A stretch of 64,000 nt of DNA from an uncultured Bacteroidales bacterium (GTDB taxonomy: Bacteria; Bacteroidota; Bacteroidia; Bacteroidales; Bacteroidaceae): contig CACXKA010000002.1 of assembly GCA_902768125.1 (NCBI GenBank), positions 1 through 64,000 on the forward strand, read 5' to 3'. Positions within the stretch are counted from its first letter, which is position 1. Each line of letters starts with the position of its first letter. The notes beneath the pieces are model-generated. The model was not told the origin of the DNA, did not search any database, and worked only from the letters and a program-made list of their open reading frames with translations. This document shows, in pieces, positions 21,338-57,898 of this stretch. The translations under genes were made by a program, and so were the position numbers.

Positions 21338-21530
21338 TTAAAACAGCCCCTTTTGGAGTCCGCTTGGCACTCTCTGGTAGTCCGCTTGGCTCGGACTCCT
21401 CTTCCGCTTGGCTTATCCCCCAACAACCAGCCTCTGCTGTTCAATACTCGTGCGTTATTAAGAAATAAGGTGCCTCTGCTGAGGAATAAGCGTGCGTTAT
21501 TGAAAAAAAAGTTTTAGAAAAGTTTGACTT
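21338..21530. repeat. Dispersed repeat family 1, copy a (with GAGTCCG module)
   Basis: A first module has AGTCCGCTTGGC repeats bounded by the inverted pair GGAGTCCG/CGGACTCC. It is followed by two tandem units built on GCCTCTGCTG then AATAAGCGTGCGTTATT. The same two modules in the same order recur near 44990-45130. It ends in AAAAAAAAGTTTTAGAAAAG, which also follows copy b. Confidence 0.75.
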
Positions 21531-21724: not shown

Positions 21725-21815
21725 TTGTTGCCTCCCGAGGGTACACTTGTTGGCTCCTCGGGGGAACACTTGCAGGCTCGGGAGGGTGCAACTGTAAGTT
21801 CGAGGGGGCAATTTA
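21725..21815. repeat. Phased array of CTCCCGAGGG-type cores, 22-23-bp period
   Basis: Four units start with TTGTTG, TTGTTGG, TTGCAGG and TGTAAG. Each is followed by a G/C dyad core (CCTCCCGAGGG, CTCCTCGGGGG, CTCGGGAGGG, TTCGAGGGGG) and an ACAC/CAAC tail. Spacings are 22, 23 and 23 bp. No ORF is involved. Confidence 0.7.
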
Positions 21816-21857
21816 TTTGCAATTCTACCCCTACTTTTTGTATTGAGACTGGTCATT

Positions 21858-21985
21858 TGACGACAAATACCCATCCAAATGAGATGTTGAGGCTGATTTT
21901 TTGAAAAGCCTTCGAGGGCACAAAGTGGCAGATATGGCATCAAAACACAAGGTTTATGCTTGTTTTAGAGCCCTAAAAAAGCCTA
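21858..21985 (-). repeat. Dispersed repeat family 2, copy a
   Basis: Read on the minus strand it has, in order, CTCTAAAAC, CACTTTGTGC, CAGC, TCAACAT and CATTTGGATGG. The same order and spacing occur at 53340-53455 and 57605-57735. Confidence 0.6.
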
Positions 21986-22098
21986 TTTTTGAAGGAAACT
22001 GTCCTATTCTAATCCATTAGTGTCTTGAGTTGGGAAATGAGAATATGCTGCATCTTATTGTATTATAGCCTTTTAGAAAAAAAGACAAACAACTGAGT

Positions 22099-22245
22099 GT
22101 GACAGTTACAGTTGTTACAGTTTATTTTTAAGGGTATCGCACTTTTCTCTATATACTATATAACTATATATATATGAATTAATTAGATAGTATTTAAAGA
22201 GATATGTAGTGCTTGTTTTTTAACTGTCACAACTGTAACTGTCAC
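22099..22245. repeat. Inverted-iteron element A (about 147 bp)
   Basis: The left arm has GTGACAGTTAC, AGTTGTTAC and AGTT. The right arm is its inverse, AACTGTCAC, AACTGTAACTGTCAC, matching 23 of 24 positions. Between the arms lies an AT-rich core with AAGGGTATC, CTCTATATAC, TATAACTATATAT and ATTAATTA. The left flank is GACAAACAACTGA. Elements at 57051 and 57356 have the same layout and size. Confidence 0.75.
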
Positions 22246-22280
22246 GCGTTTAGGCTGATTCTTCTCTATAAAGCATATTC

Positions 22281-22400
22281 CCCAATACCCCGCCTCTGCT
22301 GAGCAATACTCGTTCGTTATTGTGAAATAAGGTGCCTCTGCTGATGAATAAGCGAGCCTTATTGAAAAAAAAGTTGAAGAAAAGTTTGGAGGATAAGGAA
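22281..22400. repeat. Dispersed repeat family 1, copy b
   Basis: Two tandem units, CGCCTCTGCTGAGCAATAC then TGCCTCTGCTGATGAATAAG, each followed by a TTATTG end. They run into AAAAAAAAGTTGAAGAAAAG and TTTGGAGGATAAGGA, as after copy a. Confidence 0.75.
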
Positions 22401-56835: not shown

Positions 56836-57050
56836 GAAAAACATAAGAAAATGAGCCAACCCTTTCATTTCTCAAACTACTTTAAGAGAAAGCCTTAGGA
56901 TTCGCAAGAAAATGCTTGTAAAAGAGGCTGAATAAGGAATAGACTCAATCACCACACCAATAACCGCAATTATGTTACACGTTGCAGAAAGTTTTAGAAC
57001 GCGTCCTAGAAAAACTCGCCTTTCATCCCTGTTACACACCATCCACTATT

Positions 57051-57203
57051 CCGCCAAACGCCAAATGCCAAATAAGGGTGAAGGGGCGGTTATTATATTT
57101 ATATAGTTCCTATCCATTTACTTCTATCCCTATATATTATTATAATTATATATAAGGGTAGCATTTTCCTTATTTCTTATTTGGCGTTTGGCTAATTTGG
57201 CGG
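57051..57203. repeat. Inverted-iteron element B (about 153 bp)
   Basis: The left arm is CCGCCAAA, CGCCAAA, TGCCAAATAAGG. The right arm is the inverse, TTATTTGGCG, TTTGGC, TAATTTGGCGG (one unit spacing differs). Between them lies an AT-rich core (AAGGGTGAAG, TATATTTATATAG, TATATATTATTATAATTAT). The size and layout are those of elements at 22099 and 57356; the arm sequence is unrelated. Confidence 0.7.
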
Positions 57204-57216
57204 GGTCGAGTCTTCT

Positions 57217-57300
57217 CCAATAACCCACGGTTATTTCTCAGCAGAGGCAGGTTATTGATCAATAAGGCTGGGTTATTGGAAAATAATGGCAGGTTATTGG
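57217..57300 (-). repeat. Dispersed repeat family 1, copy e (reverse)
   Basis: On the minus strand CAATAACCTGCC-type sequence occurs twice, once with the full CTGCCTCTGCTGAGAAATAA extension, together with several GGTTATTGG ends. It lies between inverted-iteron elements B and C. Confidence 0.75.
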
Positions 57301-57355
57301 AAATGAAAAAAGTCGTGCCTCATAGAGAAAGGCTGATCAACGACAAACAAATGAC

Positions 57356-57512
57356 AAGCGTTTCAGCGTTTCAGGCGTTTCATTAGCAAAAAGGGTGTTA
57401 CACCTTCTCTATTTATACTTATAACTATTTATTAATTAATAAGTTATATATCATAATAGGACATTGAAACCCCACATACCCCCTAGCTGAAACGCTGAAA
57501 CGCGAAACGCTT
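57356..57512. repeat. Inverted-iteron element C (about 157 bp)
   Basis: The left arm is AAGCGTTTC, AGCGTTTC, AGGCGTTTCA. The right arm is AGCTGAAACG, CTGAAACG, CGAAACGCTT, its inverse. The AT-rich core (AAGGGTGTTACACC, CTCTATTTATAC, TATAACTATTTAT, ATTAATTAAT) closely parallels the core of element A. The left flank GACAAACAAATGA also matches element A. Confidence 0.75.
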
Positions 57513-57604
57513 GGTTAATATAGGTGTTTTCTAACAAATTGATTTATAATTAAGTAGATGTTATCAAGTCCTCTTTCCTTGTGATTCAGACCCTCGGTTT
57601 GGCT

Positions 57605-57735
57605 CAGAAATCGTGAAATTACTCCTCTAAAAGGCCTCAAATCCATACCAAAACCCTCTCATTTCGATGCTTTTCCCTTCACTTTGTGCACATATCAGCT
57701 TTCCGAAATTCAACATTCCGACCTCATTTGGATGG
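57605..57735 (+). repeat. Dispersed repeat family 2, copy c
   Basis: ACTCCTCTAAAAGGCCTCAAA, GATGCTTTTCCCTTCAC, TTTGTGCACATATCAGC, AATTCAACATTCC and CATTTGGATGGC lie in the shared order. The rest of the gap to 57898 is AT-rich and shows nothing further. Confidence 0.65.
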
Positions 57736-57898
57736 CTTTTTGTGGTAAAAGAGCTAATCTAAATGTAAAAAGTGGGGGAAAGAAGGGGAAACGTTAAGGT
57801 TTTATGGTGGAAATACTTAAGGAAAATGGATATAAAACCTATACAAAATACTGTACAATTAGTTAAGAGTTAGGAACTGGGATTTTCAATTACTATTT

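Follow-up and report, generated by a model that had tools for sequence, protein, structure and literature searches.

Hairpins with inverted repeat-unit arms in Prevotella-like bacteria, a probable replication origin of a small integrated gene module

The window, the stretch of 64,000 nucleotides of Bacteroidales DNA analysed here, contains three elements (A, B and C) that each consist of an arm of three short direct repeats, a core rich in A and T, and a second arm that is approximately the reverse complement of the first. The arm type is TT in C, TA/GA in A and GC-CAA in B. In the reading favoured here, the hairpin is probably a replication origin that binds an initiator and belongs to a small integrated module of the order X-origin-Y-Z in Prevotella-like bacteria, and A and C in the window would be remnants of such modules.

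Architecture and distribution of the hairpins

Elements A, B and C were found within about 2 nt of the positions given by the original prediction and have the common architecture of three repeats and inverted arms that it described (Table 1). The single-strand folds predicted for them were compared with dinucleotide shuffles and gave z-scores of -9.2 (C), -7.8 (A) and -6.7 (B), with none of 200 shuffles folding as well as the real element in any of the three cases. A family profile was made from 13 copies; its matches in the window at 22096-22250 (A), 57048-57208 (B) and 57357-57513 (C) follow by construction, as A, B and C were themselves included in it.

Table 1. Coordinates of the hairpins and adjoining features in the window
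Feature	Position	Strand	Remarks
Element C, whole hairpin	57355..57513	.	unit (GC)GTTTCAG, N1N2 = TT
C left arm, three direct units	57355..57382	+	
C core, AT-rich, putative unwinding region	57383..57487	.	
C right arm, left-arm units inverted	57488..57513	-	
Decayed 5' fragment of Y beside C	57571..57827	+	tblastn, Y residues about 5-93, two frames, stop in each
Element B, hairpin, GCCAAA subfamily, core conserved between species	57050..57205	.	
Tail repeat (AATAACC.../CCTCTGCTGA) between B and C	57218..57299	-	
Element A, whole hairpin	22099..22245	.	left units GTGACAG/TTACAG/GTTACAG
A left arm	22099..22122	+	
A right arm	22222..22245	-	
Left flank of A, read as decayed Y	21754..22012	-	77% identical to C4 flank carrying Y fragment
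Tail repeat beside A	22292..22375	+	

A and C are members of one family, as had been proposed, and are oppositely oriented inside a larger repeat. B had been placed in the same family; by its GCCAAA units it is a separate, well conserved subfamily, with 34 matches, some of them partial, in 16 of 45 genomes of the same genus. No gene was linked to the B-type copies, as no neighbour was common to more than 3 of 23 loci, some of which are duplicates.

The family is larger than the three copies originally supposed. In the genome of the window the profile search gave matches at E<1e-3 in 16 separate places, plus one weak match (E=0.011) that is a B-type copy, and it matched 27 of 61 genomes of relatives (27 of 37 from the same genus and 0 of 24 from other families). 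Later searches found the hairpin in other genera of the same family as well. A degenerate pattern that did not fix the variable base on either side was run against a collection covering 84,980 species and matched 58 stretches, 56 of them in records titled Prevotella, Bacteroidales or similar and two in Olsenella. Viral contigs contained no match to this pattern, and one hairpin searched against plasmids and one against phages gave no match either. After removal of identical copies, 131 distinct elements were catalogued. According to the original prediction, the resemblance would be due to chance if related genomes had no more copies or if the arms failed to co-vary; copies are present in 27 of 61 genomes and the arms do co-vary (see below). 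Given also the fold z-scores of -6.7 to -9.2 and the concentration of 56 of the 58 pattern matches in Prevotella- or Bacteroidales-type records, with two in Olsenella, an origin of the three elements as chance palindromes is hardly conceivable.

Three further observations concern the surroundings and spread of the hairpins. The Olsenella pair (L167:3568-3700 and L185:7512-7644, G+C about 63%) has inverted arms of GTTnCAGTT units around a core that is not AT-rich, with no X, Y or Z within 3 kb, an instance of the arm grammar in another phylum. A second dispersed repeat, CCTCTGCTGA with AATAACC/CAATAAG stretches, occurs in the window at 21473, 22293, 22335, 31571, 45056, 45098, 52983 and 57238; it stands beside many hairpins and also alone, and in L044 it seems by eye to follow directly after a stop codon. 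Tandem hairpins of differing arm type are present at L009:2929-3671, L029:3959-4366 and 57050-57513 of the window, as if newcomers had landed beside residents.

The X-hairpin-Y-Z module and its decayed copies

In many copies the gene order is X - hairpin - Y - Z. Y is about 436 aa long when whole and has a C-terminal QLxxW motif; the hairpin sits 5' of Y, mostly 36-60 bp from its start. X, about 124-190 aa when whole, lies across the hairpin from Y. The product of Z, the gene downstream of Y, contains a CHC2 zinc finger (E=1.3e-16 and 1.9e-15) and a Toprim match below threshold (E=3.6e-4), and is on this domain content a DnaG-type primase. When the neighbours within 1.3 kb of the 131 elements were clustered by protein, homologues of Y were obtained at 23 elements (some truncated) and of X at 16. 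Within 3 kb, 51 of the 131 elements have X, Y or Z sequence (16 XYZ, 4 XY, 30 Y only and 1 X only) and 80 have none. A second core type, defined by a rule of our own, comprises 39 of the 131 elements, 37 of them without X, Y or Z; among the other 92 elements the genes are missing from 43. Comparison of flanks for the boundaries of the second core type gave homologies that were mostly one-sided or at varying offsets, with no clear boundary.

The P-loop-like stretch of Y has a mostly irregular Walker A motif (..NKGQ), SGxGK being present in a few rows only. One of four Y proteins tested had a sub-threshold match to Pfam DUF3987 (E=0.0022, 17.7 bits, cut-off 27) and the other three had no DUF3987 match at E<=1. 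Searches of PHROGs and NCBIfam with X and Y gave nothing useful, and a PDB profile search with Y gave one weak, meaningless match (E=0.014); no initiator family matched Y in the family searches made (Pfam, PHROGs, NCBIfam, PDB). Y had no match in phage records, plasmids or viral contigs. Read by eye, its C-terminus may be a winged helix.

A protein search found the short Y in 46 of 399 family genomes, spread over 10 of the 30 genera sampled, and in 2 of 393 genomes drawn from the order. Starting from Y alone, a hairpin was present at 33 of 35 short-Y loci outside the window's genus, and at both loci without one Y lies at a contig edge; the 35 were read out of 38 such places (G088:C36, G143:C14 and G289:C15 were left out), and one of the 33 (L303) has a Y without its 5' part. 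The long DUF3987-like homologues of Y in Bacteroidales (about 744-832 aa, 14 loci) match the Y profile over about 10-433 and have an extra long N-terminal part; unlike the short Y, they had no hairpin at any of the 14 loci, read about 1.5 kb on either side of the match.

The genes upstream of X are variable. A PADLOC scan of some proteins from 10 loci gave a clear defence-type match in five (L221, L222, L223, L225 and L302), a fraction that has no background control; the types were methylases of types II, IIG and III, AbiL-like, pAgo and PDC-S14, with a weak sixth match at L224. SocA/Panacea upstream of X at L218 is a weak defence case. HU-HIG DNA-binding genes (L226:5700-6101, L223:13142-13570, L083:1973-2539 and L181:4174-5001) follow several modules on the downstream side, and one solo hairpin also has such a gene next to it. 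Three modules have genes homologous to one another in their vicinity (L219:9390-10409, L221:6046-7101 and L225:9084-10106); two of these genes have weak IS200-type Y1_Tnp matches (E=0.0024 and 0.00024) and the third none. The leader upstream of X at L218, L220, L221, L225 and L226 has, by eye, a promoter-like TAnnTTTG followed by a GCAGAAA...TTTCTGC hairpin and a T-run; this conserved leader might be an attenuator. Tyrosine integrases were located at 26 places in 7 genomes and none is close to the modules examined; the nearest is about 34 kb from a module (G030), and in one closed genome (G287) the distance is about 0.69 Mb, several other module contigs being short or ending near the module.

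Beside C lies a decayed 5' fragment of Y (Table 1), whose two pieces have best E values of 6.7e-9 (first) and 1.3e-4 (second). At A no Y match was obtained at E<=1e-3, nor any among the 14 best matches listed in a second search; its left flank is homologous to a flank that does carry a Y fragment. Because of these two flanks, A and C are read as solo hairpins left beside decayed modules, and C would now be inactive. Another relic, C22, still has 77 aa of X together with a 158-aa part of Y. The window's genome (about 90% complete) contains no intact short Y at E<=1e-100, the best matches being two long homologues and a 151-residue fragment. The X, Y and Z genes were invisible in the window itself because they are decayed or absent beside its copies. 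The flank GACAAACAAnTGA, which the original prediction regarded as homologous in A and C, adjoins hairpin A on the side of Y (a side inferred solely via homology to another copy) and hairpin C on the opposite side, and is thus probably not homologous. The repeat of about 700 bp around A and C was considered as an independent mobile unit and dropped, since its head holds decayed Y.

In six of seven pairs of copies the hairpin is 95-100% identical, the left flank 48-85% and the right 60 bases 73-100%, the lowest flank identities being those of non-homologous flanks; the seventh pair (A and its counterpart in G006) has no difference between hairpin and flank. This suggests that the hairpins are conserved or converted relative to their flanks. 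The same six pairs, the many dispersed solo copies and the genes with weak Y1_Tnp matches near modules would also fit a miniature, MITE-like mobile element whose ends are particular to each copy and which a recombinase, or Y itself, moves. Beside many main-class copies, however, the sequence that is conserved is decayed Y, so the inherited unit is larger than the hairpin, and a mobile element of this kind is considered quite improbable. A rather doubtful extension of the origin reading is that solo hairpins are kept, by selection or gene conversion, as working Y-binding sites that titrate or capture incoming modules of the same specificity. Together they would then be an incompatibility (immunity) array directed at replicative islands, inherited and coded in sequence, in which residue 408 of Y is the matching key.

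Arm units and residue 408 of Y

The arms had been described as unrelated between copies. Most of them follow one grammar: 117 of the 131 elements have at least two N1N2-CAG units in both arms, with TA, TT, TG, TC, GA, AT, CT or CA as the dominant N1N2. Dinucleotide agreement was 0.85 between the arms of one element and 0.20 between elements, a comparison that is biased because detection favours paired arms. A fairer test is provided by the degenerate pattern, in which the variable base is free on both sides: 56 of the 58 matches agree left and right where 36% would be expected, and only the Olsenella pair, in which the units alternate, departs from this. The co-variation of the arms originally proposed is thereby borne out. 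The third unit is TA/TA in paralogue C7, mismatched TA/GA in A and GA/GA in the G006 counterpart, a series that offers a snapshot of change. Mixed or mismatched arms, TTTCAG on one side and TTACAG on the other, also occur at L214:2564-2715 and L154:2021-2178, which were possibly caught in mid-change.

The base N2 changes together with a single residue of Y, residue 408, which stands just before the invariant W of the C-terminal QLxxW motif. In the first 20 modules column 408 was the only one of 435 Y columns to determine N2 (20/20), with a normalised mutual information of 0.849 against 0.669 for the next column, and the code was K to C, Q and S to A, V and N to T. This rule was fixed before the arms of the held-out loci were read. 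There were 32 further modules with a readable hairpin, 28 of which carry K, Q, S, V or N at 408. The rule agreed in 26 of the 28 (K to C 5/5, Q to A 1/1), compared with 20 of 28 for always guessing T; because T is common as N2, most of the discrimination comes from the K and Q cases. The exceptions are L291 and L298 (V with A). The four held-out modules with new residues at 408 gave M-T, L-T, L-T and T-A.

Over all 52 modules column 408 ranks first (0.677, next 0.378), and its value was reached in 0 of 300 label shuffles (42 non-redundant rows). Some of the 52 are near-copy rows (L269/L270 and L284/L286), and L274 was scored as T although two of its six units read TA. Of the 12 changes of N2 on the Y tree, 9 fall together with one at 408; for the column ranked second the number is 4, and among the eight columns listed the highest other count was 7, in a column that changes 23 times. 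As controls, the best column of X reached 0.297 (40 modules, Y408 0.69) and the best of Z 0.282 (49 modules, Y408 0.66). The rows left out of the 52 were L133, L240 (Y at contig edge), L241 (mixed arms), L242 (Y frameshifted), L287 and L301 (contig edge, no hairpin visible), L302 (same place as L281), L303 (the Y without its 5' part) and L325 (divergent helix, imperfect arms). Outside the 52, exceptions were seen in L242 (K with TA, the Y split by the frameshift) and L241 (V, arms half CT and half CA); L133 (intact Y, V with CT) and L324 (V, TT), read after the table was made, both agree. An association of N1 with Y columns was confounded with one clade and was dropped.

The strong predicted folds of A, B and C and the co-variation of their arms could also reflect a structured RNA (retron-like, or a riboregulator) in which co-variation preserves an RNA stem. 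Such a stem needs neither three direct repeats per arm nor co-change with a residue of a neighbouring protein, and an Rfam scan of the window gave 0 matches; a structured RNA is therefore very improbable. A tRNA scan of the window found nothing. The candidates 'invertible promoter' and 'retron' were dropped, as neither explains three direct repeats per arm together with a base that tracks Y.

The origin reading and comparison with known systems

In the origin reading, Y, a P-loop-like protein and distant relative of DUF3987, would use its C-terminal helix, QLx[408]W, to bind the six repeat units, with residue 408 reading the base that adjoins CAG. One set of Y on each of the two inverted arms would cause the AT-rich core to open, and Z, the DnaG-type primase, would prime synthesis. 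As all six units must match the same Y, the arms would change together with Y. At A and C the module genes would have decayed and the hairpin remained. Physical binding, melting and replication are all predictions from sequence.

The hairpin might instead be an operator, bound by Y through its arms solely to control its own operon, with the AT core as a promoter or attenuator between X and Y. The position of the site between the two genes, mostly 36-60 bp before Y, suits this alternative, and the code at residue 408 suggests recognition rather than replication. An AT core is, however, unnecessary for an operator, and two iteron sets around AT-rich DNA beside primase and initiator genes are the layout published for PICI origins (excerpt of PMC6092414). 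An operator is judged unlikely. Among the four explanations offered by the original prediction, the one favoured is thus the small origin-like site that has iterons and a core for unwinding, the mobile element and the structured RNA being less favoured.

On the origin reading an unexplained genome repeat becomes linked to an unstudied replication-type module. The code at residue 408 is directly testable, by swapping one residue of Y and predicting the new iteron. The module also makes it possible to test how an initiator co-evolves with its origin if a change is needed at six sites simultaneously, and whether orphan origins affect invading elements.

No description of this hairpin family was found in the short listings returned by searches of the open-access literature. 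The original prediction knew of no described family with such a design; PICI origins, as given in the excerpt of PMC6092414, do have two iteron sets on either side of AT-rich DNA, a layout that the hairpin shares. The PICI origin lies 3' of rep and the PICI has an integrase at one end, whereas the hairpin lies 5' of Y and no tyrosine integrase is near the X-Y-Z modules examined; the two sets of the hairpin are moreover inverted copies of each other, unlike those of PICI. Because of the other side of the initiator and the missing tyrosine integrase, the X-Y-Z module would not be classed as a PICI.

In PLE a satellite-encoded initiator, RepA, binds iterons in a non-coding region; as described in part of PMC7145576, it is of RepA_N type, and its iterons are ones with inverted sub-repeats instead of a pair of inverted sets enclosing an AT core. 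A P. gingivalis MITE with a minisatellite (excerpt of PMC4596501) is another Bacteroidales repeat with inverted and direct repeats, and is likened to the hairpin by description only. In the SCCmec pattern-2 origin, according to the relevant part of PMC7581432, the C-terminal domain of the initiator helicase Cch2, encoded next to the origin, recognises the iterons and acts with a priming partner. A similar logic is proposed by analogy for Y, with C-terminal binding of iterons beside a primase. It is the layout of the PICI origin taken together with the logic of Cch2 that leads to the hairpin being read as the probable origin of the X-Y-Z module, and Y as its putative initiator.
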